Origin: Smittium mucronatum
Taxonomy: Eukaryota > Kickxellomycota > Harpellomycetes > Harpellales > Legeriomycetaceae
Direction: 5' to 3'
Length of the DNA: 34,763 nucleotides
Assembly: GCA_001953115.1 (NCBI GenBank)
Contig: LSSL01002067.1
Span: forward strand, 1 to 34,763
In this document: positions 4,207 to 34,230 of the stretch, one piece after another
How positions within the stretch are numbered: position 1 is the stretch's first letter
Layout: each line of letters starts with the position of its first letter
The notes under the pieces: generated by a model
The model's input: only the letters and a program-made list of their open reading frames with translations
What the model was told of the DNA's origin: nothing
Databases searched by the model: none
Position numbers and translations under genes: made by a program

Positions 4207-4236
4207 GGCTAAAAATAAACTAGGGGTAATTTTTCC
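4207..4236 (+). repeat. Left inverted terminus of DIRS-like element
   Basis: Starts GGCTAAAAATAAACTAGGGG and continues with GTAATTTTTCC. Its inverse is recognisable at 8702-8731, and AAATAAACTAGGGGTAATTT recurs exactly in the miniature element at 34106-34230. The exact outer boundary is inferred from these three alignments. Confidence 0.75.
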
Positions 4237-4634
4237 AAGAAAGAAAATATTTTTAAAATTTATAGGCCTCTTCAAAGCGAAGATTTATTAATATTATACT
4301 TGGTTAGAAGCCATATTAAGTGTTTACATCTTATTGGATAAAATTAATCGAAAATTATAAACCAATAAAAAAAAGTGAAATTAAATGAAATACATAAAAA
4401 AAAATTTATAAATAGAATCTAAAGCTCGCTTTAGTTTTATCCTTATCATTTTTCTTAAATTTTAAATTGGAGCTGGTGGGTGGGACTTTTTATTTCCTAT
4501 CCTCTCGTAATATATGAATAAATCTTTGCTTTAAAGAGCTAGATTAATTCTAAAATTATACTTCTGGATGGAGGAAAACTAGGTTACACCAAATTTAATA
4601 TCTACTTAGTCAAGCTATTCGATTAATTTATTTT

Positions 4635-5220
4635 GAGTCCACTGTATGTATCAATCATAGAATATTTCGATCAGAATGCATGCTAAATTATTTCATCGGC
4701 AGATATCCCTAATTTTGTTGCGAGCTTAACCCTGATTTCACAGCCCTTCGGTATTGATGCTTCGGGATCTCAGCTTATTAAATGTTTTTCGATCGAATAT
4801 CTCGTGATATAATGTCTCCTTGTTGCGGTTATGTGCTATCTTTAATAAATCTTAACAATCTCATAACAGTCCACTTGTTTTTATTAGCGTGAAGATTCGG
4901 TAAAAATTACCGGATACCTTCTTCTTATAAAAAGAGTTCTTTAACAAGTAACATATAATATCTTCTGAATGAAAACTTGTCTGAAAATTATTTTCTATCT
5001 TTCGGTCACATTTTTTTTATTTAGGTGCTAATATAACAATATTTTGTTCTCCCATTACCACTTTTTTCCTTTCTTTATCAGCCCTGTGGATATCATTAGC
5101 TCTAAGAAACCCCTTTTTGATAAAAGTAACATATTTTAGTGGCAATTGTCTTCGTCTAGAGGTCAGAAGAAGTTCTAAATCCTATGAAAAGCTCAAAAAC
5201 CTGGGTGATTTCGAATTTTG
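4635..5220 (-). pseudogene. Tyrosine recombinase of DIRS-like element, decayed
   Basis: This would be the enzyme that inserts the circular cDNA of the element by a strand-exchange reaction using a nucleophilic tyrosine. Two minus-strand blocks in different frames are readable. At about 5075-5127 the translation contains LRANDIHRADKE, matching the part of YR proteins around the first catalytic arginine, followed by a peptide like the usual VILAPKxK segment. At 4635-4736 it contains IRVKLATKLGISADEII, then stops, then SKYSMIDTY, matching the C-terminal box that holds the second arginine and, in DTY, the catalytic tyrosine. At least two stops interrupt the C-terminal box (codons where Gln and Trp are expected). 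It follows RNase H, as expected in DIRS elements. Identification rests on motif recognition, without a search. Confidence 0.75.
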
Positions 5221-5984
5221 GCCTAAAAAAATATTTGATTGATGTTTCATTCGAATTTTTTTGGATTCGGAAAAAATTGGATGCTTTGAAAGCTCCGTGT
5301 GATTTTAGGCCAATTTTACCAGATTGGATTTTTATGCCTTTATCGAACTTACTTTCAATCTACCTGTATTTTATATTTCCGCAAGATAGCTGATTATCTT
5401 CGGAGCGTATATTGCAGTTGAAATATAATTTGTTATTCTCTGATCTAGAAACCACCGCTGGATAAATATGTACCTTTATCTACGTCTAAAACGTCGTTTT
5501 TTTGAAAATACAAGGTAAACTTAATAATTTCCGAGACTTTTTGTTTTGAGTAAACGCCACTAATATTTCAGAAAATAAATTTCAAATGCTTTTTTTCCAA
5601 GAGCGGTGATTTTCCATTTTTTGTCTCGAGTATTATCTTTATTTCTTGCAGAATTAGAAGACTGGGATTTTGAAATCCCCAAGAGGTCTGGAAACCAGAT
5701 TTTATACTTCCAAATTTTAGTCACCAAAAGTATTTTTATTCTCTCTAAGTGAATTTTCTGCACCATCTGTGAGATCGGTTTTCATGGTGTGCAAATGTTT
5801 TTTTTTTTGAACTCTGACCAATTTCAGATCAGCTCATTTTGACCCAAGGCTTTTGAATCCGGAAAATAGCCGAAGTAGACACCCAAATTTTTTTTACCTG
5901 TTGGAAACTATAAGATACTCGTCGTGCCTGGTAAATACTAAACTCACGATTTTGAATGTCTCCTACGATAGAGACCATTATTTC

Positions 5985-7155
5985 TGTTAACTCGGCCTTC
6001 TTGGTGCATCTGATAGATTTGGAACTAACGGAACTTATGTGAGTTGGTACCTTGAGTAGTTTTCGGACAGTTCCCCTAGATTTATTATGCTATCCACAAT
6101 ATTTTGGTAGAGGTTGTTCTTTCAAACTTTCTTAAAAAAGCCAGTGTTGTCGCGCTGTCCGAATAAACTAAAATCGAAAGATCTACCACCCTGTTTATTA
6201 TGATGGCGTATAGTACCTTTCTTAGCCCCTTAGCTTTTTTTTCATCTTCTGCCCGGATCTGTTCCATGAATACGAGTATGTGTGGTATTCCACTACTATC
6301 TGTCGGGATTTGTCGCTGTAATTGGTAAAAATCCCCATTATTTGCGTCCTGGAGAAGAATGGTATCCTGTTACATAACTTCAAATTGCTATTTCAGAATA
6401 ACAGGTTCCCAATTGAGATTTTCTTCAGGAATAATATCAATATTCATTCCTTCATATTTGACAGTAAATTATTCCGGAGTTCGTGAAGCCGGTGAAGTAC
6501 AAGATGTCCTGGAAGTAGATCGATTGACATATACCGAACTTTCCCTATAAATCTAGCCAGAAATCTCGATTTTCTCTGGTCAGCATTCAGTATTCGCTGG
6601 ATCTTTTCTCAGACTCTTGAGTTTGGTAGATGGAACTTTTATGGTCATATTTCTGGTTTTGATAACATTACTCAGGTTTTTATTTGATTTGGATGGGAAG
6701 TTATGCTATTTATTTTCTTTTATCTCGAATTCAAGTTAAGATCGTTAGTATTATATTGATTTCGTCATATAATTGCTCGCTTTATTCACCTTTCCTAGTA
6801 TCAAAAGATTTTCTAGGTATTCTGAGACCCGTATATCTTTTGACTTGGTCTATTTCAAAATAGTTGGAAGAATATTTGTGAATATTAGTGGAATCAATGG
6901 TATCCCGGATTTTAAAACACTGAACTAGAAACAGCGGCAGCTCCAATGAATGCGGAGAGACTTTTGGCAATTCTTTTATATCAAAATTTACATAATCTTA
7001 TCCTAGAGGTTTAAGAATGACAGGTAGTCTTTTCTGCGGATCATACGGCAGATTGAAAAAAGAGTTCTCATCTTGAAACTCTGCTCTTTCACTTCAATAT
7101 TCAGTTTTCAAAGGCCTAGTACTGTTATCAATCCTCCGTTTTTTTATCGTGAAAA
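5985..7155 (-). pseudogene. Reverse transcriptase and RNase H of DIRS-like element, decayed
   Basis: Copies element RNA to DNA in the intact family. The minus-strand translation from about 7140 contains KLNIEVKEQSFKM and RRKDYLSFLNL (RT fingers/palm with the first catalytic Asp lost), then IPLIPLIFTNIL, and at 6808-6819 YLEN followed by LLILGK, where active relatives have Y-x-D-D. Both active-site aspartates are therefore replaced. About 6455-6660, in another frame, gives NMTIKVPSTKLKSLRKD and GKVRYMSIDLLPGHL, the thumb/connection typical of DIRS RTs. RNase H follows at 6085-6200 with VYSDSATTLAFLRKF and, after a one-base frameshift, a VPNLSDAPRR segment near 6000-6045. Several stops (positions expected to be Trp, Gln, Lys) confirm decay. 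Confidence 0.85.
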
Positions 7156-8149
7156 TACGACTGTAAAGTCATTTACCTCGAGGCTATATCCTTATGATGA
7201 CCTCATTCTACATAAAGGAGGTTGATTAGTCGTAAAGAACCTTTCCGGCCTCCCTTCTCAGGATTATTTTTTAAAGAACCGATGATAATTCAGAAAAAAT
7301 CCCTTATGTTCCACCTTAATTCATAGGCACTTGAGCTCTCCGTTAGCGCTCAAATACTCTTGTTTTTAAAACTAAAATTTCAGTTAGTACTTGCAAAAAA
7401 ATACCCTGTTTTGGCGGAGATTTTCCCGCTACATGCTGAATTTTTGTTTTTTCCGACGACAGGCTCTAATTCTGAGAGTTTGGGTTCTTGAAAAGAATTA
7501 TAAATCTCTTCAAAAATATGCTCTGAACCCAGCTGCTTTCCTTTATCATGTAACAAGCTTCCTTTAGCATAGCTAGGCTTTCTCCTGCTTATTTTACTAT
7601 TTGGACTCTACCAAGACCCCTTCCCTCTTATACAAACCCTTCGTAAAAATTTTACTGGCAGTCGGATGAATTTTTACCGGTTTTGGATGTGGCTGCAGCA
7701 GTGTTATTTGACGATGAAATAATGCATCTGTTGCAAAAATGTTTTAGGATCGTTTTCTTCTGGCACTTGCAAAAAGACTGTACTCGCCGTCTCTTAACAA
7801 TTGATTTCTTTTTCATTAGTGATTCCAACACTTATCGATTTATTAGCAGCTTAGGATCGGATTCCATCGGCTGGGTAGGCTTTTCAGGGTGTCATAACTC
7901 CTTATGTATATTTTCTAAACTTGTTTGGGTTACTTTGGCTGGGATATCGTCCAACAGAGCTCTTATTTTACCAGAAATTTTCAAAAAGGATCTTTAGATC
8001 TTTCTATTCCAGAATTTTCTTGGATTAAGCGATAAATATAATAATCAAGATATCTGTTTACTTTTTCTATTGCTGCCTGAGTTTCATAAAATGTGAAATT
8101 TAATCTCCTTAAACGAAACTAGATATAGATCGTTCGGTAGATTTGGTTT

Positions 8150-8509
8150 TTAGTTCATATAAATAGCCCTAAAGGCAAGAAAATTTAGGTATATTACACT
8201 TTTCTTAATTAATTGGAAGCCTAAATAATTCTTCTTTGATTTACAGAAGAGCTTCAAAAGCTCTGAGTAAATATCCGAGCCTGAAACTGGAATCTGATTT
8301 GTAAAAAAAGGACCGAATTTCCCCTTTTCGGGGAATCTTAAACGTATTAATAGGTCGAATTTCTCATTTAAGTTCCTTATTATTTTTTCTGCTTTTGTTT
8401 CAATTGTCTTTTTTGAAGAATCTAAATTTTTTGTAAATTTTTTTAAAAAATTAAAAATCTTTATGCTGGTAGATTGCCTTTTCCAAAGAAAAGATGGTAC
8501 GGATAGCAC
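8150..8509 (-). pseudogene. Gag-like ORF remnant of DIRS-like element
   Basis: A 119-codon open frame beginning with ATG at 8509, located just inside the high-coordinate terminus, which is the 5' end of the minus-strand element. Residues roughly 35-100 are charged and helix-prone (KAEKIIRNLNEKFDLLIRL and later SDIYSELLKLFCKSKKN). I do not recognise a domain; the gag assignment comes from position upstream of RT and from the composition. No CCHC zinc knuckle is visible. The frame ends early relative to a normal gag (several hundred residues), so it is likely truncated by decay. Confidence 0.45.
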
Positions 8510-8701
8510 TAAAGTGTACTTTGCATTCTATGTATAAAAAAATTTTATAGTTGATTTCATTTCATTTCACTTTATTTTATTTTTTTATAATTTATGGTTT
8601 ATTATTATTCAATAAGATGGTACCACTTATTATAACACCTCCCAAAAGTATAAATATAAGCTTATTTGACACTTAGAGAAACACTAACCAAAAAAATCAA
8701 T

Positions 8702-8731
8702 AAAAATTACCAAGAGTATTTTTATTTAGCC
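8702..8731 (-). repeat. Right inverted terminus of DIRS-like element
   Basis: Reads AAAAATTACCAAGAG then TATTTTTATTTAGCC, the imperfect inverse of the terminus at 4207. The 74 bases ending here align almost without gaps to 34156-34230, sharing AAGCTTATTTG and ACTAACCAAA. Confidence 0.7.
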
Positions 8732-9344
8732 TGCAGTCTTTTCAAAATAAAAACTTGAGATTTCTAGAAAGATTGATTTTTTGCGGAATTAAGCCAATTT
8801 CTGCTTATCAAAAAAATCAAATAGAGTAGATTTTGGTGACTAAAAACTCTTGTGAAAGGGATTTTTGGTTTTTATTATTAGATTTTTTGAGTTAGAAGTA
8901 ATATTAATGTTTAATTTGTTGGGATTCAGAGCGGATTTTAATTTTTACCTATAATAATTATTTTTTTGTAAAAACCCCACATTAAGTGGCCTGATATTTT
9001 TTCTAGCTTAACTTCTTTTCATTTCTAATTCAAATTAATACTAGTTTTAAGGAAATGATGAGCCCCCATCTCCCGTCATTAGAGTTATTCCTATGGATAT
9101 CAGACTCATATCCATAAATGCTTGTATGTAATACTTTGGAGAAAAAACAATATGTTAGAGTTATGAATTATTACCAGGAATGTAGTAAATTACTTCCCTT
9201 TAAAATAACGGAAGTTTTATTTGTTACCATTTAAATTTTAATCAAACCTTTAACCAAGTGCTAAAAAATGTATTTTTTACTAAAGTGGAAATAAGAAGTT
9301 CTTATGAGAAAAGTGCTTGATATCTCAAAAACAGATCCATATAT
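8732..9344. other. Spacer between two mobile elements
   Basis: AT-rich, no coding pattern on either strand. It holds one perfect 9-bp inverted repeat, TATGGATAT at 9092-9100 and ATATCCATA at 9108-9116, with a 7-base loop. The last four bases, ATAT, are repeated just after the right end of the following transposon (14940-14943). Confidence 0.65.
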
Positions 9345-9377
9345 GGGTAATTCTTAATGAAGAAGGCATTTTGTTTC
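9345..9377 (+). repeat. Left TIR of transposon copy A
   Basis: GGGTAATTCTTAATGAAG followed by AAGGCATTTTGTTTC. The same terminus occurs at 21392 (copy B, left), inverted at 14907-14939 (copy A, right), degraded at the right end of copy B, and in both ends of the miniature element at 33348-33635. Confidence 0.85.
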
Positions 9378-10239
9378 ATATTATTTTATCCAATGAATTG
9401 TCCAAATTAAATTTCGTCGAATCTATTGAATAAAAAAAAAGAATTTATATTTTTCTAATATCTTGTATATAAATTTGAATTTTGTTTATTATAATCATTT
9501 TTTTCTTAGCAATTTAATGTTTTGAATTAAAAAAAAATAGAAAGGCATTATAAATGTTTTTTTATAGCCTTCGACAGTTTAGATTGCTCTTCCACCCCAG
9601 GTAAAATGATAACAGTATATTTTTTTATCCCATTCAATAAAATCACCTTTACTAAGTCTCTGCTTCATATCTACTCAAATACACACATCTCCATCGGCCC
9701 AATTTTTCTTCCCTTTCTAAAATACCCAAAACTGATCCCGAAACTCAATTTTTTATTGGTTTTATGAAATTTACCAATATTAAAAAAAGACTTCATGTCC
9801 TCAACTTGCCTAAACTTGTTTGAATTTCCTTTCTTTGTTTAGGGACTTTATCAAATAGAATTCTATCGCAATAAATTTTATCTATTAATCGAAAAAAACA
9901 ACTAATATATCAAAAAAATTGTACTACTAACTTTTTTTATTCTCAATAAACTTTCGATATCAATCATTTAAAATCTAGTAAGTATTAATTTCTGCATTAT
10001 CCTAACTACAAAAATAAAATGTCTTACTACACTTACTTCCTTTCTCTTTTACTCCTGTCAGATATTTTTAGAAATAAATTTTCATTATAAAAGAATCACT
10101 TTCTAAATATTATTTATCTCCCTCGACCAAATTTTAAAATTAGCTAACAATTTATTGAAAATACTTCTATAAATTTATCCCTTATCTATTCGAAATAACT
10201 TTCGTCTTATCCATTTAATTTAAATGCTTTTCTTTTTTA

Positions 10240-11070
10240 TCGCCCTCAGCCTAGGTTTGATATTTTTGACCCCCCCTCTCCTCTCTCCCATTAAATATAA
10301 AGCTAGTAGTCCATCCTCTCATCCATATGACTTGAATTATAGGTTTTTTTAAAAAAATAAAGCCTATAATATCTGATCTTATTATCTTTTAAAAACTATT
10401 GATTCTGTTTATTCTATTTTTATTATCTCCTAGCAGAATTACGCTATTAAATATCGTACAACTTCCAAAAAACATCTATCTATTCTCCTTATTTAATCAA
10501 TGATGGCACTATTTTAAAATAAAATTAATAATTCATACCTATCCAAATATTGTCCAAAAACTTTGCTGGTAAACTAAAAACTGAATCCAAATTATCCAAT
10601 ATACCATTAAATTCAATTATAAACTCTTTAATTAAAAAAAATAATTGGCAAAATTTTTTATTGTCTTATTATAGTTGATTTTAGTACCTCCTACACAAAC
10701 AGAATTTATATCTTTAAATATATTTTCTAGAAAAATCACTATTATTTAAAATTATTCTCCTTACTAGCCTAATCCAATTAATGGAATGCATTTCTTCTAG
10801 CCGCCATCATATCTTAGGAAAAATTTTAGATTAAAATATCCGAAATCACCCATGTTACCATTAGCACGTCAATATTACTCGGCTTAATATCACTGATATC
10901 AACGTTTACATCTCTTCAAATCATTTCAAAAGCGCCTAAAATTTCTATTTTCATTAGAATAAATTCTGAAAAAAAGCTTGAACCGCTTGAAGTTGCTTGT
11001 GATCTTGGGGATATCATATGATACGATTTTTATTTCATTATCTGAAAATTTTCCAAGCTATATATGACTT
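10240..11070 (+). pseudogene. Accessory ORF relic of transposon copy A
   Basis: No intact frame remains, but the plus strand is pyrimidine-rich and its translation aligns in pieces with the better preserved relic of copy B (22270-23110). Shared points include a SQN-[FY]-AI-[RK] segment (near 10430-10460, with a stop before it here) and a later segment KISEIxxVxxxxxIL followed by LEVACDLGDII just before 11030. Conservation at the amino-acid level in two diverged copies says it was a protein gene. I do not recognise the product. In other transposon families such a second ORF is often a DNA-binding partner of the transposase; that is only an analogy here. Confidence 0.5.
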
Positions 11071-11984
11071 TCTAAATAGAAGCTTGGTCTAAAATAGGGA
11101 TTTCTCTCCAAGCCTGCTTAACAACCTATCATTATGTATCTTTATCCGTCTAACCACAGTAATCCAGAATTCTCTTATAACTCTTGAAATTAACCTTGGC
11201 AAGTTTATTCTGGGTTAGCAATTATTTTAATGTTATAATTTCGACCAATTCAATACAGCCATACCATCCAAACCTTTTAAATGTGTTTTGAAACTTTTTA
11301 CAGTAAAAAAAAAAATTCGAGTAAAATTCGAGTAAAATAAAAATTATTATTACGAGAAATTTATTCTCTCATTTATTTTAAATACCACATTTATTCCTTC
11401 AAGTTAGCAAAATTAATGTTTTGTATTCTAGAAATTATGTTTAATAAATGTTTGTGTCTAATTTTATTTATACTAAAGCAATATAAAAGCTTCTAATTTT
11501 AGAGATCCCAATCAAACCAAATCATGTATATTTACTGTAATAAGAACCGGATTTCTAAAATATAATTAAGAATATTTTATAATCAGATGGGATTATAAGA
11601 CTAAAAATTTGAATTTTAAAGAAAAAATTAAAAATTAACTATCCCAAAAATAAAAAACTATTAATTCTACAAACTAATAATATAAAATATTTAATACTTT
11701 CCATAAAAATACAATAAATGTCAAAAAACACATTAAGTAATTTTAAATAATTTTATTGATAAATTTCTCCGGTAAAAAATATACGATAACATTCAAATAT
11801 AACTGTATATAAAAAATTTTAAAACTTTACCCAATATTTTCTTGTGGATTCGATACTATTAGGGAGTTATTTCATGGATCCTAGGCCATAATTCCAATAA
11901 ATCGACTATTTAAACCTATGAAACTCTAATACAAAGTATCATATAATAAATTAAAGTGAATTTAATAAATATTAAAAATTATAT

Positions 11985-13715
11985 ATAGTTCAAGAAGTGA
12001 CTCTATGGTTTCTAAGCCATTCTAATCTTGAGTTATGTACCGAATGTGAAGGCGGGCCATACTCAAAAATTCGTATATATTAAGGCTATGTGAAGCAGGA
12101 GAGAATGTATTTTTTCTAAAATCTTTAGAAACTATAATTTTAAAATTTTTTGACTCATATTCTCTATCAAGAAAGGTGCTTATATGAAAAGCCATAAAAA
12201 AATTACTAAGTTTATAAAAAGATAAAAAATTGATAAAATTTTCGAATATTAAAATATTTTTAGATTACTGGATCGGATACAGATCTTAATTTAGGAAATT
12301 ATAGTTCATTTTTGCCGGAATGATATTTTTTTGATCCTCAAGATCGGCTGTCTTAAATCTAAAAAAACCTAAAATATCTTCTATGGTGAATATTTCAATA
12401 ACTGATCCTGATTCTTTGAATCACTTCGAAATTACACCAAAATTACCTTCTAAATAATTTTTTCCATGGTTCTCTAAAAAAAATTCAAAAAAATATTACC
12501 TGTGAATTTCTCTAGCAGATTTTTCACCACTGCATAGAGAAATTCACTGTTCCTAAAATGGGGACCCGAGTCGCTCCAAAGAGAAAAATTTCTATAACAT
12601 GATAAATCGGCGGATCTTTTTAATGTATAAAAACATTTAAGAGAGTAAAAAGATTCGTGCGTGAGATTCTCTGAAAAAAAATGTTATTGTCTCGTCTTAA
12701 TAGACAATCAGACTTTTTTATTGGGAAAAATGGCAAATCTGTTGTATTCTTATTGCTAAAAAATACATTGGTGGGCTCGACAGGGCCTACGCAAATCTTA
12801 AAATTTTCTTTGAAATCATAAATTGTTTTACAAGATTTGATACATAAATCACACATTAAAGCTATTGGTTCGTGATTTTTGCTCATCCACCAGCATTTTC
12901 TGATCCATGCAATGTTGGTATGCATACTTTAGCCTTATTACTTTTCTCAGAGACCGATGCTCAGAATGAAACCACGGAATGACATAGCTTTTTAACCTTG
13001 CTTCCGGATACACACATCTTGCACACATCCGTTTTCTTGGCCGGATTTTTTAAAAAAAATTGGACAGATCGAATAAAAATTACTTAATCCAAATTTCAAT
13101 CCCGGGTTCTCTCACAAAAGCTGATGTTATATGTGACTCTTTTTCTGGTTTTAATATCTCACCGGCGTTCCAAGAGTGTTTCTGCTGTTTCTGGAGCCCC
13201 TAAAAATCAATTAAAATGGCTGGGGATTGAAGTTTTAAGATGGATTTAACCAATTTAACAAAGTTTAGGTCAATAGACAATCTTGATTCGGGAATTTTTC
13301 TATGATAATAGTTTAAAGTGAAAAGATCTTCACATTCCTTCTGTATAGTTGTGTTGAGCAGTGTTCGGGAGAACTTAAACCCAATTTTAACAAGCTGTGG
13401 GCATGAGTACATTGAAGCTACCAGAGACAGGATGCTGGACTTTCGGTACCGACAATTTTTCAAAATTATGTGCTAATTGCTGATATTAGACATTATATCC
13501 TTCAGCTTGATATGATTTGCAGAATTTATACCATTCCCAATCGATCTTCCTGCATAAGAGCTGAATAGTTTGTACTTAATGTTACATCTTGTGTCTTTTT
13601 TTAACAGGTTTTTACAAAAAATTGAAAAAATTCTTCGAGAGTATGATTTTTCACCTACATCTAACCTGAATGAGCAGGACTTTCCAAATGCGTTAAGAGT
13701 GGATGATATATTCAT
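11985..13715 (-). pseudogene. DDE-type transposase relic, transposon copy A
   Basis: Would cut and join the element at its TIRs. ATG at 13715; about 575 codons in several frames. In order: an N-terminal part; SLVASMYSCPQLVKIGFKFS (about 13370-13430); a C-x2-C knuckle, TDVCKMCVSGSK (near 13000-13040); HTNIAWIRKCWW; then DFKENFKI and GPVEPTNVFF (12760-12830), probable first catalytic Asp; WSDSGPHFRN at 12549-12581, probable second Asp; ENHGKNYLEGNFGVIS at about 12423-12475, with Glu or a neighbouring residue as third acidic position; then a helical tail, TIEDILGFF and MAFHISTFLDREYES, to about 11985. A one-base shift in a T run separates the second and third motifs and several stops are present. 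The triad order and the fold are inferred from motif resemblance. Superfamily unknown to me. Confidence 0.7.
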
Positions 13716-14906
13716 TATAAAAAAATGTAAAAGAAAAAAGAAAATATTATCATTAAATTGAATTATGAAATTTAAAAATACTTGTAATATTTACAGTGTG
13801 TAAAAAATGGTTTGCAGTTTTGGATTTTTTGATGGTTTTTCGCCTATTTTTTCAAAAAAAATTTGTGGATAACTTTTTGATATTTTATTAAATATATTTT
13901 CCAGGAAGTTAAACCATTTATATGATGATACGTGTAATTGTACATCTTAATCGCCTACATTTGGCGTTATTTAATTTTCAATACAAGACAGTATATTACG
14001 CTTTTCGCGCTTTTTTTAAAAAAATACGATAATACACTATTAAAACCATTAAATTCTAAAGGATAAAACTCGAATTAAATTTTATAAAAAGATATTATAG
14101 TGAAAATATTCGCCAAATTAAGTCTAAAGTCTTGAATATTTTCAATTTAGTACTATTTTTTTTAGTACGCGTGAATCATACACTTTTCTGGATTTTTTTT
14201 TATGGAATTAGATATACTGTAACTGTTTTTTGTCGACGATTTTCGGAGTTTTGTACTATCAAAAACGTCTGATAAAACCATAAATACACTGTTTCTTTGA
14301 AAAGAAAATTTGAATCAATTTTTTTTAGAATATACAAATTATGATCATCAGGCATTACTTCTATAATGGTTCTAAGCATTTTTTTTCTGGATAAATTCGT
14401 CGTTTTACCAGCGGAATGGTAGTGAATTGCGTGTCTATTTTTCAATTTTTTTAAAGGGATTTTGCTTGAATATCCAAAATCTGACTATCAGAAGGTAACT
14501 TATCGAGGATTTCATAAAACTGATTTTTTCATTATTCATTTCAAAAATTATACATTTACATAGTATAAAATTTAACTTCTACTGTTATTACACTATTTTA
14601 TACTTTTTATTTTGCTGATATTTTTACGAGTACAGTTTGGCTTTTTTTTGACCGATTTTTACAAAAATCGCTTAATCCGGGCATTTTTGTATAACTTTAT
14701 TACAAAAAAATGAGGAAATCTATTTGCCACTAGCATAAATTAATGTTATATAATTCGTCAAATAAGAAGATAATGAAAATTACTCCGCCTATAAAAAACA
14801 TATTAAAAAATTAATCAATCAATAGAAGCAGTTAATTATTGCTACATAAATCTTCATTTTCATTGGATAAAAAAGTATTTTTGGGAATCTTCGCTGGAAC
14901 AGATAC

Positions 14907-14939
14907 ACTATAAAATGCCCTCTTCATTAAGAATCACCC
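14907..14939 (-). repeat. Right TIR of transposon copy A
   Basis: Inverse of the left TIR: ATGCCCTC followed by TTCATTAAGAATCACCC. The flanking ATAT at 14940-14943 matches 9341-9344. Confidence 0.85.
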
Positions 14940-15658
14940 ATATTAAACATTTTCTGAGGGTTACGGGACATTTCAATTAATTACTCAATCTATCACAAAC
15001 TAAGATTAAAATTATTACACCCAGTAAAAATAACGCTTTTTTTCTAAACATCTTGTTAAAAAACTTTGTTTAATACTAAATTTTTAGTGAACAAAATTTA
15101 AGTGAAATGTTATGTAGGTCAATTAGAAATAGACGACATGTCCCGCAACACTTTCAGGGTCTAAATTTACATTTACCTCTTATTTGCTCAATAAATGAAA
15201 ATTTTATTTGACTTTCATTAAGCTTAGGCTAATAACTTGTGAGAATTTGGAGTTTGATGATCAGATAGCCTGGGATTGGTGGGCATCGAATTGTCTTAAC
15301 CCTTGAAGAGGCACAATCTTAGATTAATAAATTATCCAATGGCAACGTTTTATGTCAAAAAGAGCTCTGATTTATTTTGCAGCAGTATCTAGAAAATATT
15401 TGATCACCGAATTAGAAAGCTCACTAGACCTTGAAAGTACGAGTGGTTGACCAATTAGGTCAATCAGATAAGATCTTTTCAAATGGCGAAAAAAAACCAT
15501 ACTTTTCTAAGTCAAAAAAAAAATTCCATCTTTACTAAATTTGCAAGCTAAAAATCACAGATCATTCGAGTAGAAAGCCGTTGATTAAGTGCCTTCCTCC
15601 TATCCTTCAAAAAAAAAAAATTATCGAAAAGGAATATCAGTCCAAATAAACTAATTCA

Positions 15659-16796: not shown

Positions 16797-19700
16797 TTAT
16801 TCAATCAATTCGAATATTCTGTTCATGATAATGTCAAGCCTATTCTCAAACACATTCAGTTGTACTTTGCTGTACTCATAATCATAGCAGAAAATTAATG
16901 AAGATTCGCTAAGAGTATTAATATTATCTTCAGGGTCCATTTCGAGCTTTTCGATCAAATCAGTAGGTTTAATAAAAACCTTTTCGGTAAAAGTCTGCTT
17001 TATAGAGCTAATAACTCTAAATACGTTAGTATCTGTCAGAATTCTATAGTTATTCTCATTGCTGTCAAGAACCAATTGACTTGATCGTATAAGGTTTGAA
17101 TGGTCAGTTTCTTGAGCATCTTCAAAATTGACCTCTTCTGAAATTACTATCGAGTTTTTATCTAAAATAGAAAATATTTGTCCCCAATCATCAAGTGAGT
17201 AAATCCTAGTCCATAAAAGGTTCAAAATTTTCCGAGTATTTTCCAATATTTTTGGACTAGAAATACTTTCAGAAGGTGATGATATCAGTGACTCTAAACA
17301 CAATGCCAACTTAAACGCAATTGTGAAATTATTAGATAAGCTCCACTCGCTTTCTCCTTGTACTACACTATTCCCATAAACTTCTGCATCATTAGCATTA
17401 AAAAATTCTTTAGAACCATCAAATATAACTTTTCCAGACACTTCTGAAGCTATTTCTTTGGACCCCTGATTATCAGCTTCCAAATTAACTAATGATAAGA
17501 TATTGATAAATTCAAAAATTGAAAGTTGAGTGCCATTTGCTAATTTCTTCAGCTGTTCTTTAAAAGCTTTGAAAATTGGAGTTTCTGACTGCGAAACCTC
17601 TGTATCTGAAAAAACATTGCAGAGGTCATTTTGGGAAACAAAACTTTCATAGTCAAAATTCGCCCCTCCTTTGGCTAAATTTGAATCAGAGCCAAGTGGG
17701 AATGAATCTATAAGATGAGATAAAAATCTTGACATAAGCTTATTGAAATTGAGTTGGCTATCTATAAATGATAGCGGCATCGCTTCTAAATTATCTTTCT
17801 CATTTGAATTAGCGGTTTTCGGTATGGAGAGATTAATAAGCTTGGCTAAACAAAATATATTTGTGTGGGCATTGATATCTCCATTATTAGATAATCCAAT
17901 GCTTTTTTTAGTTAGAGATTGAAGAGCATCAGAATAATTTTCAGTGGATAAATCATATATCCATCTCATTTTGTGGGCATTATCATCTTCGTGACTTTGA
18001 GGATCAACTTCTTTAGACTTCAGAAATCTTCCCAAAATATTCAATCTTTCAGAATCTATGTATCCCCGGCAGTATGGGAAATTGTAAAGAGAATACATCT
18101 TTCCGGTTTTTGAAAAGTTTTGAAATAATCTATTAGCAAAATTATAGCCAAATTTATCAATACAGCAATCAATGAAAACCTCAATGTCCAAATCAGAGTT
18201 TAAAAAAACATTGGAGTTGGCATCAACCAATTTCACCATCAAGTCATAATACTCGATGGTATTTGCTAATTTAGTAGCTGTTCCGAATTTCCCAACAGTC
18301 ATCAGCTTTTCAAGAGCAATAATAGTTTGCCGGGTAGCAAGAGGATGGATCAGAATCACGATTTGAGAAAAAAGCCCTAACTGATCAATCAATGTCTTTA
18401 TAAATTCGGCGCGATGAGTTAGGTATTCCTCGCCAATAAATTGAGTGTCTAAGAACACACCGTTTCCGATGAGTTCATAGTATTTTATTAAGGGATCAGA
18501 TTTGCTATCATCAAAGGATATAATCGACATTTCCGGAAACGTGAAATTAAAATTCTTATAGTAAGAGTCGATTGCTGATGAAAGTTTATCGATAACTGAG
18601 TGAGATAATTTGTCGATTAAATTGAAAGAAATACTATATAAGCTCCAAGCAATATCTACAACATTATCATTGGTAACAGAAGGTTCCCACCAATTTTTTG
18701 TTTGTCTTCCAGGAGATATATTGTAAATGCTGGTTCCAAACTCAAGTCTATATGCTAAAGATGAGGATGTCAAAGCCATAAAAATATTGTTTGCTTCATA
18801 CGCAGTTATAGGTCCAGAGTCGTCCTCGGAATCAAAATTTCCTGGATTAGAAACCAACTTTAAAAGTTCTAAGAGCATCCTATCTATGTAACAGATGCCA
18901 GAAAAAAAGAAATCCTCAATAGTAGAAGCTTTTTCGGATTTTGAGCTTTCCAAAATAATTATGATTAGTTCATCTAATAAATTTCTGTGATTACTATCCT
19001 CACCAAAATATTTGATGCTAAGACTTTCCATATTGAGTCTGTACTCCCATAAATCAGAGGCAGCAAAAAGCATTTCAGTGTTCAAAAGCAAGTATTCGAT
19101 AGTATGATGGCTAAATCTTTGAAATAAATTTTGTTGGCACAAAAATTCATTAAAATGATGACTGAGAGATGCCCTTGCATTGATATTACTCTCTATATCG
19201 TATTCTCTTTCAGTTGTTTTCATTTTGTTTTCCAAAATACCGTTAGATAAGTCTTTACACAACTCTTCTAAGCCACTGATGTCCAAATGATGCAGATCAA
19301 TATGTTGGGTTATTCTAAAGTCAATCGGGTTTAAAATTAGGGAATTCGGGATTTTGGACTCTCCGTACAGTAGGAATTGCGAAAGAACATTTCTAATTGT
19401 TTCGAGGTCATCCGTTTTCTCAATAGGAGTTGCGGAGTTAGTGTAAGCTGACAACTTCAGAATATCACCACCATTAGAAAGTCCAAAATACAATTCAGAT
19501 GAGTTAGAATATGGAATTGTGTTACTAACACCAAGGATTTCAAAACCAGGTCTTAAGTAGAATTTAAAATTTTGAAGAATCACTTGGTGATCTTCAGATT
19601 TATGATTATTGTAAATGGAAATTAAACAATTTGAAAAATATATGTAATTATATTTTGAATCTGTGTTATATACCAGGTTTGCAGGGCTATTTTTTGGGGA

Positions 19701-21175
19701 TGTGGAAACAGAGGGCACATCTAGGAAGAGGATGTTACTAGAAAGAGATTGACTGCTTGGGTTAAAAGAAAAAATACCATATTTTAGATACTCATTGTTG
19801 AAAGTCGCAGAAAAAATGACATAAACACAGCTTTTTTCGCAAACTAACGTATCAACAATAGCTTCAAATTTAAAATTTAGGGATTTAAAAGTAGGAGAGG
19901 ACTCAGCCAAAGATTTCACATCGAAAGAATCTAGAAACTCATTGAAGTCAATACTCATATCAGCATTAATCAAGTATAGTTCTAAGTATTGATCCTTGGA
20001 GAGAGACAAAATTTTAGAAGATCTGGGGGTCTTGTTAGAAGAAAAGTTAGCTATTCTAGCAATTTTATATCCATTGAAAGACGAAACAATATTGAGGCCA
20101 TCAGGGTTTGATATGTCAGAAATGGCTCTTGATATCTTATTGATTAAATTGAAAGCTATTGAGCCTAAGCTTGACTTTGATAATTTGGTTTTTAAAACCA
20201 AGTTGATTTTACGATCATTTATGTTAGAGGATGTTGATAAATGAAATAAATTTCCAAGATTTGTAACTGCGAAATAATCGAAACCATCCTTTAATGTTAA
20301 AAGATCTAGTACAATTTCGGTAGACTCTAAATCCAACTGGATAGTTTTGAAATTATCTACACCAGATATCCCATATCTTACTCTTTCAAAAAAATATAAA
20401 AGCCCCTTTTCACTACAGATTATGGCACCGATATCAGCGTTACTTTTTTTAGAATTGATTTGATCGTAAACACCAACAAAAGAAAAATGCGGTATTGAAG
20501 ACGGATTTTGAATCAAAAGGGGAGGACTTAATGTGTATAAATTGGGTTCAGAGCTCTAATAGCAATAAAGATAGAAGGAAAAGAATACATAAATATAATA
20601 TAAAAATATAAAAATACAAAACTAACCCTATCAATCCTCGACCTGAAACTCCAAATGTATGAAGCCTTGCTTGTTACAAAAGAAGCAAATCCAGATTCCG
20701 AATCGATTTCTAAAAGGATTTTAAGTAGATTAAATAAAAGAAAAAAAATCCCGAAAAGAAATATCTGTTTATTTGTTTACTAAATTCAGCGACCTACTTA
20801 AATTTCCAACGAGATTGGACAGAAGATCTGGGATTTTCGATTGATAGTCTATTTGAAAAGAATCACTAGAAAATAAAGTGCTGTTTTTCGATGGAACTCG
20901 TGATATACTCTTAGAAATTTTGGAAGTAATTAGAGTGTCAGTTTGCGAAAGGAATGGGTCAGGATCTATCTGTGAATTATATTTTTTGGTTCTGAAGGAG
21001 GAATAATCTATATAAAAAAAAAGGTTGAAATTCTAGTAAAAATAAATGCTGGAGTTAATAGGTAATTTTTAGATGAGAAACCTGCTTTTGAAAATTTAGA
21101 AGACCTCCTTGCACTTTCGTAATCATAACTAATCTGTTTTCTTTTTAAAGATGGGGTTGGGCGTGAATCAGCCAT
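16797..21175 (-). CDS. NUP133: Nucleoporin Nup133 (Y-complex scaffold)
   Basis: Structural subunit of the Nup107-160 (Y) complex coating the nuclear pore. Exons on the minus strand: 21175-21082, 21007-20798, 20709-20627, 20555-16797, giving 1381 residues (human and yeast proteins are about 1156). ATG at 21175 is the first in frame; no upstream ATG precedes an in-frame stop. Residues 1-100 are basic/Ser-rich and probably disordered (LKRKQ near residue 10 could be an NLS). The N-terminal beta-propeller begins about residue 105 with GFASFVTSKASYIWSF, interrupted by an intron, and continues to roughly residue 560. The helical C-terminal part carries family signatures: ATKLANTIEYYDLMVKLVD near 890, WIYDLSTENYSDALQSL near 995, LLWTRIYSLDDWGQIF near 1242. 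The protein is Ser/Asn-rich. A start at 20516 (a TTG) is wrong because the open frame continues to a splice acceptor. The family call is confident; Nup155 is the main alternative and fits the C-terminal signatures less well. Confidence 0.88.
20556..20626 (-). other. NUP133 intron 3 (71 bp, phase 0)
   Basis: Donor GTTAGT directly after AGG (20629-20627), acceptor TTGCTATTAG ending at 20556. Joining the exons gives RIDR followed by SSEPNLYTLSPPLL and the long last exon without a stop. Predicted from sequence only. Confidence 0.85.
20710..20797 (-). other. NUP133 intron 2 (88 bp, phase 1)
   Basis: Donor GTAGGT after TTA-A, acceptor AATCCTTTTAG ending at 20710. The nearby GTAAAC (about 20780) is rejected as donor because it puts the next exon into a frame that stops within a dozen codons. 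With GTAGGT the junction reads VGNL-K-IDSESGF. Confidence 0.8.
21008..21081 (-). other. NUP133 intron 1 (74 bp, phase 1)
   Basis: Donor GTTTCT (weak) after GCAG, acceptor CCTTTTTTTTTATATAG ending at 21008. An earlier AG at 21033 (TTTTTACTAG) would lead to a stop shortly after. The chosen junction makes KFSKA-D-YSSFRTKK. Confidence 0.78.
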
Positions 21176-21391: not shown

Positions 21392-21424
21392 GGGAGATTC
21401 TTAATGAAGTGGGCATTTTGTTTC
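21392..21424 (+). repeat. Left TIR of transposon copy B
   Basis: GGGAGATTCTTAATGAAG followed by TGGGCATTTTGTTTC. It differs from the copy A left terminus at only a few positions. Confidence 0.8.
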
Positions 21425-22269
21425 TTATCACTTTTACTGGTCAATTATTTTGTTGGTCTACCCAATTAATTTGTTAAATTAAAATTTGTTCGTTTCTATT
21501 GTTCAAAATAAATAGGCGCTTAAATTTTTCTATTCCCTAATTAGGAGTTTGAACGGCGTTTAGAACAGCCTTTTTATTTGCAGGCATTCTAATATTTTGA
21601 AACAAAAAAAGCAATAGTGAGACTTAAAATCTGTGATTTCTGTCCCAGGTACACTGAACAACGCTTTGTTTCTGTATATTTGCTAATAATCTCACCTTTC
21701 CTAAATACATTCTCCATACCTTCTCAAATACCCTCCCTCCCTCGCACGACTCTTCTTCCCTCTCTCTAAAGTACCCGATCCCGATACTCAATCTTTTATC
21801 GAATTTATCAAATCTACTCATCTCCAAAAGAACTTCCCCATAAATCAACTTAACATCTCTCGTTCAAAGTCTTTTTTTTCTATTGAAAAGCTCTACTAAA
21901 CAGTGTCATTTCCGATCCACTTGATCTATTAATCATCAACATCAACAACAACTATACTTCCTATTCTTAATGAATTCAAAAGCAGAACTGCTTGAATTCT
22001 AGATGACCTTACTGTTTTTTTTACCACCGACAAAAAGCCTTTATCTTTCCCCAGCCTCATTCCATCCCTTTTACCATTGCCTGATCTGTTCGGAGACAAG
22101 TCCTTCTTCTCAAAGCATCCAGTTTCAGATGAATATTTACTCCCCTCCTAAAAAAAAAAAGTTCAAAAATCGAGAAACGTTTTCTATAAGTTCCTTTTGT
22201 AAATGTTTGTCCCACATCTTCCCAACCATTCTCTTCTAATTCATATAATTTAAAAACTTTGCCTTCTGG

Positions 22270-23110
22270 TCCCCCTCAACCTACTTTTGATAACCTCAAC
22301 TGCTCACCCATCAAACGAAAAGCTAATGGGCTATCTTATCTTCCGTAAAACGATGTCTCTGGAATCTTTAAAAGTAATAAGCTTCAAAGTCTAGTAAGTT
22401 CTAATGTTACTATTATTGAAGAACTCCTAGAGTCTGATTATGCTTGTTCTCTTATCTCCTCTCAGAATTTCGCCATCAGACTATTGCCTAGCTTTCAAAA
22501 GACTGATGTCTCTTCTCATTATTTATTCTGTGATAGCGAATCTTTAAAATAGTCCTTCTTTTTCTACTCCATCCAACTTTTGACCCAAAACTTTGCTGCT
22601 AACTGGAAAATGGGTCCAAATTTGTCAATCTATTGAAACATTTTATTCTACACCTTAAGCTCATCAAACTAATGCGTTCCATTCTGGTTGACTGATTTAT
22701 GAAAGTTTTTAGCGATTACCACCTACATAGATACTTTTTCATCTTTCAATATATTCGCAGATTAAACTATTATTATTTAAAATTCTTGTTTCCACCAACC
22801 TGCTCCAATGCTATGGCTTTGCCTGTCTAGTAGTCTCTTCAAAAGCCGAGGAGAATCGGCTCATTATATTATCCGAAATCGCCCGTATTGCCATGGTCTC
22901 TTTTATTATCTCCCAGCTCAAGTCAGCTGAGATCGATGTTCTCAACGCTTTTAAATGACATCTTAATGTTTCCACAATCCCTACTTCCAATGGAATTTTC
23001 TCTAACAATGATCCTAAGATGCTTGAAACCGCTTGAAATATTGCCGATATTGTCTCTTATGACTATGATTCGTCAGCTATACTTACTCCAGTAAGTTCAT
23101 GGCTCGATGT
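22270..23110 (+). pseudogene. Accessory ORF relic of transposon copy B
   Basis: The better preserved copy of the unknown plus-strand protein. One frame from about 22290 reads FDNLNCSPIKRKANGLSYL, then KSNKLQSLVSSNVTIIEELL, SQNFAIRLLPSFQKTDVSS and NFAANWKMGPN before a frame change. A second frame (about 22800-23110) reads NRLIILSEIARIAMVSFI, LKSAEIDVLNAF, NDPKMLETA and IADIVSYDYDSSAILTPVSS. Only a few stops interrupt it. An upstream basic patch, PPKKKKFKNR (about 22145-22175), may belong to it. No family is recognised. It lies head-in from the left TIR and converges on the transposase gene. Confidence 0.55.
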
Positions 23111-24084
23111 ATTAATTCTTACTCTAAATTGCTAATTTCTGGCTAATCATCTTTAATATCGCCATACCTAACAAAAAACCAGCCTACATCTGTCCTGTCT
23201 AGTCGCAGATATCCGGAATTTGCTTAGCTATCTTGAGGTTGACTTTGAACATTTTGTGACTAGGTAGCCAATTAGTAGAATGCCAGAATTAAGACAACTG
23301 GATCTACCCACAATTGCCGCCCATATCTTTTAAATATGATCCAGCATTTTTTTTAGAAAAAAATCTAGTTTTTGTTTATGTTAAATGCATACATATATAT
23401 AAAAAAAAAAAGCAGCAGTAAGAGAAAATTTTCCTCTTAAGTTTAAGATTATATTTATTCCCTAAAGTTGCCAAAAACTTTATATTATATTACTAGGTAT
23501 CACATTTATAATCAAGCAATTAAAAACTTGGAATGTTTGAGGAGCTAAAAATGTGAATTAGCTTAAAGTCAATTATTTACATTGACACCTTTATATGGGA
23601 CTTTCAAATATACAATTATAAAAATTTTATAATAAGACAAGTTTATAAGGCTTGAAAATTATCAATTTTTTTTTTAAAAAAAAAGTATTTTAAAGTTTTA
23701 AAATTTGAATTTTACAGAAATCATTTAAGAATTAACTATCCCAAAAATAATAAACTATAAATGGTACAAACTGCTAATATAAAATATTTAAGGATTTCTG
23801 TAGAAATACAATTAATGTCAATAAACGCTGTAAATAGTTTTAAATTATTTTATTAATGAATTTCAATAGTAAAAATTATACAGTAATATTTAAAAATAAT
23901 TTTATAGAAAAGGAATAAAAATTTTACTTAATATTTTCTTGTGGAGTCGCCACTATAATGGAGATATTGCATAAATCTTAGGCGTAATGTAAATAAATTT
24001 ACTATGCAAATTAGGGATACTCAAACACAAAGTATCTTTAGTATAGTAAATTAAATTAAATTAAAGTTAATAATATCGAAATTA

Positions 24085-25815
24085 ATGCTGTGTTCAAAAG
24101 GTGTCTCTATGGCTCTAAGCCAATGTACCCTTGGCTATGAATAGAGTATTAAGGTCATCCCATAACAATGTAATCATTTGCGCTAAGGTTGGAAGAAGCG
24201 GGAGCAAATCTACTCTTTCTATAATCATTAGAAACTATATTTTAAAACACTTTGGCTAATAATCCTTGGTAATAATGTTGCTTATATTTCAAGCCATCAA
24301 ATTATTATTATATTTACAAAAAGATATATTATTTTTAAATCTATGTATTCGTAACATTTTTTAGATCCTCAGGACAGATCCCGATCATACTTGATTAAAA
24401 CTTAGGCATTTCAAACTTTTTTACTTTTTTTTGGCCCACAATATGTGCTGTCTTAGATCCAAAAACACCCACAAGATCATCGATGGTGTATATTCGTACA
24501 GCTGACTCTGAATTTTTGAATCACTTCAGAAGTACGCATAAATTATCTTCGAGGTAACTTTTTTAATTTTTTTCTTTAAAAAAAAAATTCAAAAAAACCC
24601 CCCTTACCATCTAATTTCTCCTAACGACTTTTCATCGCTGCATAGAGAAATCACCAGTTCTTAAAATTAGGGCTTGTTCGTTACAAAGGAAAAATCACCG
24701 CAATAGTATATATCAGCAGTCCCAGGCAGTTTATAAATACAGCTAATATAATGCACAAAGTTTTGTGTGAGTTTTTCTGGAAAAAAATAAATATTAGATC
24801 TTCTTATCTATCTATCAGGCTTGATTATTTAGAAAATTCAAACGTCTGATATCTTTTTCCTGTTTTGGTTTACGTTGGTGGACTCAAATGAGTCTACGTC
24901 GCTCTTTTAAAAAAACGATTAAAATAATAATTCTGTATAATATATTTGATATCTAAATTATCATACAAGCTTCCAAATCGTGACTTCTGTTCGTCAGCCA
25001 GTGTTTTGTGATTTATGCAATCTTATTATGCCGCTTTTAGCTTTAGTGCTTTTTTGGAGTCCAATACTCTGGATCAAGGTGCGGTGCCGAATAGCTTTTC
25101 TACCTTGATTCTAGATACAGATACCTTGCACATTTATGTCTTGGCTGTTTTCTTGAAATTTTTCGTTAATATAGAGTAAAAAATATATAATTTCAATCTC
25201 ACTTCAGGGGTTTGGTTTGTCTTTAAATAAAATGGTGTATATGACTCTTTGTCCTAGCCGAATATTTCACCAGAATTTCAAGAATTTTTTTGCACTCATT
25301 AGAGCTTCTACCTATCAAAAAAAATTCCTGGGAGTTACGTTTCAATATGGCTTTAACCAGTTAAATATAAAAAAAAAACTCACAATATATTTATTAAGTG
25401 CTTTTCTTTGGAAATCTTTCGGATTGGGCCGATCTTTACACGCCTTTTGTCTGGAAATTTTGAGCAGAGTTAAGGAGAGCTCAAACCTCTTTTTGAATTA
25501 GATGCGACGGTGACTATATTTCAGCTTTCGGAAATAGGATGCCTGAGCTTCTGATACATAACATTGGGGGAAATCCATTGAAATTTGCTGATATTTAGTT
25601 TTTTATGTTATTAAAAGCTGAATTTATTTCATTTCAAATCGATTCTTGTCCTTTAGAGCTTAATAGAGTGTACTTGTATATGATTCTCGCGTCTTTTTAT
25701 GAATTTCTTTTACCGAAATTGGAAAACATCTTCTATTGTTAGTTTTTCTTCTTATCTGTTCTATCAGAAAAGTATTGGACACTCTGTGATCATTAAGAGT
25801 GAGCCATACTGACAT
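24085..25815 (-). pseudogene. DDE-type transposase relic, transposon copy B
   Basis: The counterpart of 11985-13715, more eroded. Readable matches to copy A on the minus strand include a frame with SLTLLKISRQKACKDR (about 25450), HNKIAxITKHW (near 25010-25030), IYTIDDLVGVFGSKTAHIVG (about 24430-24500; copy A has TIEDILGFFxFKTA) and NISNIITKDY in the tail (about 24280). The second catalytic motif is reduced to FVTNKPNFKN-like sequence and the HGK motif is lost. Retention of amino-acid similarity in regions where DNA has drifted supports former protein coding. Confidence 0.55.
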
Positions 25816-27022
25816 TAAAAAAACTAATAAAAAAATCAAATATTAGAAGTAAAAAATTGTAAAATATTTACAGTGTATAAAATATGGCTTGTTTTTTAAG
25901 TCTTTAGGATGGTTTGCTAGTGTTTTGGCAGATTAGCAAAATATTATTCGGGTAACTTTTTAATATTATATTAAATTTATTATCCAGTAAGGTGCATCAT
26001 TTATGGAGTGATAAGAATAATTATATATCCTCATCACTCCTATTTGGTGTTATTCGATTTTTTTACAAGACTGTTTATGAAGTACTTAGCGCTTTTTAAC
26101 TTAAATTCAATGCCGCTGTATTAAAATAATTCCGTTCTACAGGATAAAATTTGTTTTGAGAGCTATAAAAGAATATTTAGTAAAAAAATCAGCCAAATTA
26201 GTTCTAAAACATTAAATCTTCCCGATTTAAAATATTTTTATTGTGTAGTACGGGTGAATAATAAAAAAAAATTACCGATATTTTTTTTTAGTATTTAATT
26301 TATTTATAGGCATTAAATTTTATATAAATCTTCTGTGCCTTCAATTTTTAGAGCCTCATATCATCAAAACCATCTATTATAATAATAAAAGTACCATTTT
26401 TACAAGCTTTTTCGAAAACTTTTTTTTAAAATTTATTAATATCGACTATTTAAAATTCCCTCAATGATGATATTAAGGGAAAAAAAACTATTTTTTGGAA
26501 AATTTTATCATTTTTCTTGCGGAAATGGCTGTGAAATTTTTGTCGCTATTTCAACTTCTTAAAGTGATTCTTTTTAATATCAGGATATATTCCATCAATT
26601 GAAGTTTTTAAATGATATCAAAATATCAGATTTTTCTTTATTTTTTTCAAAAAAATACATAATCATAGTATAAAATTTAACTTTTACTCTGATTACTCTT
26701 TCTTTTATGTTTTCATGTACACTTTAACCTTTTTGGCTGATTCTTTAAAAAATCGCTTAATATCGATATTTTCGGATAACTTTATTAAAATATAATGAAA
26801 AAATCTATTTGGCTCTGGTATAAATCAATTTTATATATTTTTCCAAATAAAAAATCATTGAAAATGGTCTGATATATAAAGAACCATAAAAAGATCAATC
26901 AATCAAATAGAACCCCTTAATTTTTATTGTGTAAACTTTTGACTTTATTAGATAAAAAATATTTTTTGGGAATTTCAGTTAAAAAAAGTTAACTATAAGT
27001 TTTTAATTTATTAATAATAACC

Positions 27023-33347: not shown

Positions 33348-33635
33348 TAGATATTATTAATGAAGAGGGAATTATATAGTATATATTGTTTCAATTAAAA
33401 AAATTAAACGTTATTTTATTGCCCAATAAAAAAATAAATTGACGATGAAAAATAATTACGTTCACTAAACGCTATACAAATTCCTAACCAAGTTAATAGA
33501 TCAATGAAAATTTCTTTTGATTTTTTTCAATAGAAATAATAAATTCAATTTAAAATTTTTTTGGATAATTTTAATCTGAAAATTGGGCAGTAAAAGTGAT
33601 ATGAAACAAAATTCCCTCTTCATTAAGAATCACCC
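33348..33635. mobile_element. 288-bp MITE of the A/B transposon family
   Basis: The right terminus, TTCATTAAGAATCACCC ending at 33635, is identical to the terminus of copy A over this stretch. The left terminus at 33348 is degraded but has TTATTAATGAAGAGGG in register, followed by a TTGTTTCA segment as in the full elements. The interior is AT-rich without coding. This is the expected form of a non-autonomous derivative moved by the transposase of the full elements. No clear target duplication is seen. Confidence 0.75.
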
Positions 33636-34105
33636 GTATGCCCTCGCTTTTTTTTCCTGAAATTTACAATTTTTTTTTTTAACTTTTATCATTAATTCTA
33701 TAAGGGTTTATAAATTTATTTTATTTACTTTTTACAGGAAATTCGTTTTAAAGTTAATAAAAAGTTCAAAAAACCAATTTTAAAAAAATAAAAGATAGAA
33801 ATAATAATGCGTTTACGATTTAATTTATTTATCCTTTAATCTTCATATATTTTAGAGGTTTAAAATAATAAATTTGAATGTGTACTTAGTTCAAGCGAAT
33901 AAATAGAGCTCATTTTTTAAAAAATTACAGATTTTAACCACTAGAAAAAAATAAATTTACCTTTTTCATTTAATAAAAATAATATTTCGAAAAGTGCAGC
34001 CGTTTTTCTTAATTTGAGTGGTTACTGTTGAAAAAATCGGCTATTGTTTAATGATGGTCTATTGGAATAAAATATGTATGTAAATTAAGATAATAAAAAA
34101 ATGTT
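33636..34105. other. AT-rich spacer between two miniature elements
   Basis: No coding pattern, repeats or RNA genes recognised. Confidence 0.6.
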
Positions 34106-34230
34106 GGCCTATAAATAAACTAGGGGTAATTTTTCTCAAAAAGGAAAACATTGCGAAGCTTATTTGTCATTTAGACAAGTACTAACCAAACAACGTCCAT
34201 AGGAAATTACTGAACGAATTTTTTTTAGCC
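34106..34230. mobile_element. 125-bp miniature derivative of the DIRS-like element
   Basis: Starts GGCCTATAAATAAACTAGGG and ends TTTTTTTTAGCC, so it has both inverted termini of the element at 4207-8731. Its left 32 bases match 4207-4237, and its last 75 bases align with 8658-8731 (shared AAGCTTATTTG and ACTAACCAAA). All internal coding sequence is absent. It could be an internal deletion, a recombination product of the terminal repeats, or a non-autonomous element. Confidence 0.75.

Follow-up and report, generated by a model that had tools for sequence, protein, structure and literature searches.

Broken copies of a DNA transposon with a transposase and a cyclin E gene, apparently from an insect-gut fungus

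Introduction

A 5.6-kb sequence is found twice in a contig of Smittium mucronatum (LSSL01002067.1, our contig C1177). Is it a transposon of a known type, and which genes does it carry? The window we have analyzed is this whole stretch of 34,763 nucleotides, with 27% GC. In our probable reading, both copies are old and broken cut-and-paste transposons, apparently of an insect-gut fungus, which contain a transposase and a cyclin E gene captured from the host as cargo.

The element and its ends

The element has terminal inverted repeats (TIRs). The following features are found in the window, including a miniature inverted-repeat transposable element (MITE):

9345..14939, plus strand: copy 1 of the 5.6-kb element, TIRs at both ends, ATAT on both sides, 64.6% identity to copy 2
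21392..27022, plus strand: copy 2 of the element, right end decayed (27022 or 27023)
9345..9376, plus strand: left TIR of copy 1, 27 of 32 bases equal to the right TIR
14908..14939, minus strand: right TIR of copy 1
21392..21423, plus strand: left TIR of copy 2
9341..9344: target site duplication ATAT, left of copy 1
14940..14943: target site duplication ATAT, right of copy 1
33348..33635, minus strand: 288-bp MITE, with ends as in the element

The copies are collinear (identity refers to the ungapped columns of a 5868-column global alignment, short flanks included). An earlier note, made from the sequence of this stretch, described two full-length copies with TIRs of about 30 bp. This holds for both ends of copy 1 and for the left end of copy 2, which shares 27-28 of 32 bases with the ends of copy 1. 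Decay is seen in the right TIR of copy 2, where 7 of 18 bases agree with copy 1's right end for an element ending at 27022, or 13 of 18, counted by eye, for one ending at 27023. The TIR start which the note gave as common, GGGTGATTCTTAATGAAG, was a mistake, since its exact form is limited to 33618-33635 and the right end of copy 1. On the left, the ends of the two copies read GGGTAATTC and GGGAGATTC. The MITE at 33348-33635, overlooked in the note, belongs to the same family.

Genome-wide copies and target site

We have scanned an assembly of 73.8 Mb in 2957 contigs. All contigs shown from it have at least 10.6 kb, which would fit a size-filtered S. mucronatum assembly; the published genome has 102.35 Mb and 26.05% GC (PMC5954228). 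Many copies with the same TIRs are present, which the earlier note had named as a possible support: 122 TIR starts (59+63) were found, as compared to 4 (2+2) for the reversed pattern, with at most one mismatch and two free positions. The right half of the element has at least 44 genome matches. The left half also has at least 44, many of them MITEs.

The duplication has a fixed length, another such criterion of the note. The flanks of 22 end pairs show the pattern AWWT / element / AWWT, with C before it in 12 and G behind it in 12. Exact 4-bp duplications are found in 8 of the 22 pairs, against 3.9 in shuffles (p 0.015), and exact duplications of 5-9 bp in none of them, so we take the duplication to be 4 bp, in a short palindrome-like site. 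These pairs were picked by hand: we dropped pairs without real TIRs (L015, L032, L039, L043), alternative pairs in the window, and L060, which repeats copy 2.

The features of class II elements with TIRs are thus found: TIRs, many copies, a fixed 4-bp AWWT duplication and a DDE/DDD transposase with an RNase H-like core. The data support a family of DNA transposons which has TIRs, a fixed duplication length, two convergent genes and derived MITEs. Published repeat ratios in this fungal group, in which old DNA transposons are now shown, are 1.58-4.60% (seven table rows in PMC5954228). The string 'transpos' is absent from the text of that paper.

Some other observations concern the copies. Near-identical stretches appear on different contigs or twice on one (L024/L027, L052/L054, C1230/C1743, C643/C2555, C228 twice). 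They are probably haplotypes or duplicated assembly, which makes the copy counts slightly too high. In copy 1 the left half is closest to L049, whereas the closest sequences to the right half are L035, L033 and L034, so this copy appears to be a chimera. The right flank of L005 contains a MITE, four bases and then another GGGAGATTCT start, perhaps a tandem MITE pair. A Ty3-type gag fragment (L058:3034-3555) adjoins an element copy. Rfam gave no match at gathering scores.

The cyclin E gene

The two convergent genes described in the note are present as coding relics, on the plus strand from the left and on the minus strand from the right. Neither is open, the longest stop-to-stop frame in either copy having at most 108 amino acids. 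The left gene, whose identity had gone unseen, codes for a cyclin E:

9707..11309, plus strand: cyclin E relic of copy 1, frames broken, residues 59-601 of P0032 (tblastn of P0032, E 1.5e-31)
21614..23373, plus strand: cyclin E relic of copy 2, start codon position now ATA (by eye), up to about residue 605 of P0032 (tblastn)

The consensus of the left half matches Cyclin_N with 68 bits, the only Pfam match of this gene. Without any consensus, raw copy 2 matches Cyclin_N at 22764-22964 (24.9 bits, cut-off 23), and the raw copies C555 and C1302 are also above cut-off. P0032, an intact S. mucronatum homolog of 607 amino acids, aligns along both copies. Its structural model predicts a two-box fold like that of cyclin E1; the model contains the second, C-terminal box, for which the Pfam C-terminal cyclin model is below cut-off. 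Lys428 and Glu457 of P0032 are invariant in 11 of 11 aligned cyclins, and we take them to be the Lys/Glu pair which contacts the cyclin-dependent kinase (CDK). Structures of v-cyclins appear as weak matches.

Two other origins of the left half were considered. A chance frame was rejected in view of the Pfam, PDB and intact-homolog matches. A viral origin was rejected, with no relative in viral contigs and no BFVD match below 0.001.

S. culicis contains two cyclin E proteins, P0033 and P0034, which are presumably encoded by host genes, on contigs of 24.7-30.5 kb. Coemansia has a distant one, P0035. In the cyclin box, P0033 is 85% identical to P0032, and the box consensus is 66% identical to P0033. 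The identity to the P0032 box is only 35% for C583 and 26% for C2846, the two strong cyclins of the genome. Among the matches listed, strong cyclin relatives are found in S. mucronatum and S. culicis only, the next one being Coemansia (2.5e-29). At sites where P0032 and P0033 differ, the copies agree with P0032 in 915 cases, with P0033 in 132 and with neither in 1196. An intact cyclin E is not among the assembly rows listed. We draw no inference from this: the 2695-bp contig of P0032 would be missing if the assembly had been cut at about 10 kb.

The transposase

The right gene corresponds to a transposase:

11993..13715, minus strand: transposase relic of copy 1 (tblastn of P0001, P0003 and P0004; genome rows C1177:12471-13517 and 12052-12507)
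24113..25789, minus strand: transposase relic of copy 2 (tblastn of P0001 and P0003)
12815..12817, minus strand: codon of the first presumed catalytic Asp (YDFKENFK)
12570..12572, minus strand: codon of the second presumed catalytic Asp (WSDSGPHF)
12448..12450, minus strand: codon of the third presumed catalytic acid, Glu (HGKNYLEGNFG)

The three codons were counted by hand in the raw translation; the role of the first is suggested by the structural model, and the others are likewise putative. The third site is Glu in copy 1 and Asp in the homologs having the motif. According to the model, the relic would be of the DDD/E catalytic type. The best full-length row in the genome has 9 stops, and partial rows without stops exist (C430, with 240 residues, is an example). 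Homologs are found in four named Harpellales species (S. culicis, S. angustum, S. megazygosporum and F. boomerangus), and the consensus is 55-63% identical to P0001-P0003 of S. culicis. One of them, P0026, a gene model of S. megazygosporum, joins the transposase to a Myb-domain protein, probably as an annotation artefact.

The transposase consensus matches no Pfam family at E up to 5, nor do transposase fragments. No curated Pfam transposase family is matched by the consensus or by the 23 homologs used (of 31). This transposase group has no Pfam family. Among the homologs, DUF7869 is the commonest Pfam match: 6 of the 23 show it, with a best E of 3e-4, but the score is below cut-off (20.9 bits in P0004, against 26). 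A DUF7869 search of the genome gave no match, and its controls were silent too. The sole sequence-profile match in PDB, glomulin (E 0.03), was taken as chance.

The transposase might be a diverged member of a named superfamily with 4-bp duplications, mainly Sola, beyond the reach of Pfam, in which case the element would represent a new family within a known superfamily. This is a serious possibility, although we lean against it, and it is compatible with capture of the cyclin. The 4-bp duplication and the weak DUF7869 matches speak for it, and in Repbase three diverged groups are kept together in a single superfamily, Sola (PMC4455052). The lack of any Pfam transposase model speaks against it.

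Arrangement of the two genes

We have counted places with all 44 right-half rows and 51 of 82 cyclin rows, after dropping two host cyclins and overlapping or short rows. In 24 of 32 cyclin places, a transposase half lies next to the cyclin half in tail-to-tail orientation, mostly at a distance of 290-570 bp. Likewise, 24 of 36 right-half places have a cyclin beside them. No partner is listed for 8 cyclin places and 12 of the 36 right-half places, some of them at contig edges. C2026 and C2079:55819 appear to be duplicates of one contig, which leaves at most 23 distinct insertions among the 24 places.

Such an order and orientation would hardly be expected if the cyclin and the transposase were unrelated neighbouring repeats. 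In copy 1, moreover, both genes lie inside a single TIR pair with a target duplication. The lack of correlation between left- and right-half distances, given below, would suit this idea, which we consider most improbable.

Two elements with the same ends and transposase contain no cyclin: C2099 (3978 bp) and C2273 (3936 bp). Homology with them breaks off close to the start codon of the cyclin and is found again from about 80-110 bp past its stop. No cyclin remnant was found in either by tblastn. Cyclin-less elements have also been inserted, so the cyclin is most likely cargo which is not needed for movement. The right 1.2 kb contains no long consensus frame which might correspond to a third gene.

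Constraint on the two genes

We have compared observed and expected change at each codon position. For positions 1-3, these ratios are 1.39, 1.38 and 1.40 in the cyclin and 0.93, 0.91 and 1.05 in the transposase. The third position is the highest in 59 of 171 cyclin pairs and in 123 of 136 transposase pairs, as compared to 68 of 136 in a non-coding control, which was read in an arbitrary register. For the cyclin box alone the figure is 46 of 171, with least change at position 2, which is due to base composition. The left half outside the cyclin is also above its expected divergence (0.252 against 0.191), so the cyclin is not alone in the high divergence of the left half. The set of 17 sequences includes L045 and L056, which are one element, and the left-half set of 19 includes L024 and L052, also one element; pair counts keep them, while the observed/expected analysis drops L056. 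The transposase shows weak past constraint, the cyclin no sign of any. The cyclin pattern may reflect functionless cargo or fast evolution, and decayed copies fit either.

This bears on whether the cyclin is a selfish helper: the cyclin E of the element would bind the host CDK and push cells toward S phase, where replication or template repair would favour a gain of copies, and so the cyclin would be kept. Its presence beside most right-half places, the two-box fold of P0032 and the invariant Lys428 and Glu457 agree with such a role. So does the position of the coding sequence, which begins just inside the left end, so that the element would supply the promoter. On the other side are the absence of a third-position excess, also within the cyclin box, and the insertion of elements without cyclin. 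We consider the helper unlikely and, since codon positions show no sign of a maintained cyclin, we place it second, after captured cargo. A bolder version is quite speculative and more doubtful still: a captured cyclin E under a terminal promoter would steer the host cell cycle, its product binding CDK and S phase multiplying the copies, while the transposase (4-bp AWWT, DDD/E, GGG ends) would represent a new superfamily centred on insect-gut fungi.

Origin of the cyclin

Capture of the cyclin as cargo may have happened as follows. The DDD/E transposase, with an integrase-like RNase H fold, would bind the GGG..ATTCTTAATGAAG ends and excise the element, which would insert into AWWT sites (often CAWWTG) and leave 4-bp duplications. 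One lineage would have taken up the almost complete coding sequence of a host G1/S cyclin E, placed between the transposase gene and the left end, which comprises about 225 bp. The captured cyclin, tail to tail with the transposase, would then have spread with the element. Host-gene capture in this lineage is the simplest history. The ends, the duplications, the identities of the genes, their fixed arrangement and the cyclin-less elements are observed, while the catalytic residues, the direction (capture and not loss), the host source and the lack of any lasting function are inferred.

The opposite history, in which the cyclin is an old standard component of this transposon group and was lost from the 3.9-kb elements, appears improbable. 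Transposase homologs are found in four Harpellales species, while strong cyclin relatives are limited, among the matches listed, to two; and homology with the cyclin-less elements ends near the start codon, with no remnant. In its favour, just two elements are shown to be cyclin-less, the other partnerless right-half places being fragments or unread.

Several results weigh against capture as cargo. The cyclin-less copies could be neat deletions, so that capture and later loss remain unsettled. The transposase and cyclin consensus are similarly far from the S. culicis proteins, which would fit long joint descent too. Between species, the divergence of the transposase does not exceed that of the cyclin, which gives more weight to an ancestral gene and less to capture. 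P0032, on its 2695-bp contig, may be an intact element copy rather than a host gene. Distances of the left half are larger than those of the right half in 62 of 66 pairs of 12 copies, with a correlation of -0.19; such unrelated patterns suggest exchange between elements or repeated acquisition. Finally, the Foldseek search of the transposase model against PDB gave nothing below 0.001, Mos1 being the best match at 3.5e-3.

Other features of the window

A separate degraded repeat is found at 3988-8798, with inverted copies (77%) at 4313-4456 and 8486-8633. Its ends are seen again at 33886-34295. Judged by eye, a minus-strand piece at 6085-6369 is similar to a DIRS-type RNase H. An intact minus-strand open reading frame of 1239 amino acids, at 16797-20516, has no Pfam or PDB match; by eye it looks like a Nup133-like nucleoporin.

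Comparison with known systems

No cyclin-carrying transposon is among the papers listed in our literature search. The suggestion in the earlier note that the family is possibly undescribed is supported only by the results from Pfam, the protein search and the literature. A transposase group without a Pfam family is added. Viral cyclins are captured cyclins on a mobile genome, but here the carrier is a DNA transposon and not a virus. The question whether transposons, like some viruses, profit from controlling the host cell cycle becomes testable. The cyclin E proteins of Kickxellomycotina (P0033 and P0034 of S. culicis, P0035 of Coemansia) belong to the same protein family; those of S. culicis have long Asn-rich inserts, whereas the element copies are broken and repeated.

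Sola elements produce 4-bp target duplications, as found here. The duplications of hAT (8 bp) and piggyBac (TTAA) differ from the 4-bp AWWT of this element. PIF/Harbinger elements also have two genes, the second of which is Myb-like, while here it is a cyclin. Their duplication has 3 bp (PMC2213677), as compared to 4 bp here. Tc1/mariner elements have a 2-bp TA duplication (PMC8277862), unlike the 4-bp AWWT of this element, whose transposase has no Pfam transposase match. The 9-10-bp duplications and long TIRs of MULE elements (PMC8277862) also differ from the duplication and TIRs found here.

Another likeness is to Pack-TYPE elements (Pack-MULE, Pack-CACTA, Pack-TIR), which carry captured host coding sequence between TIRs, as this element would if its cyclin came from the host. 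The best-known cases of gene capture by DNA transposons are fragments carried by non-autonomous elements, and Pack-TYPE elements are defined as non-autonomous (PMC8903248). In this family, on the other hand, a transposase relic lies within the same TIRs, and the captured stretch is approximately the whole cyclin, from the start codon to about 80-110 bp past the stop: A near-complete regulator of S-phase entry is found inside a transposase-encoding element, multiplied to more than 20 places.

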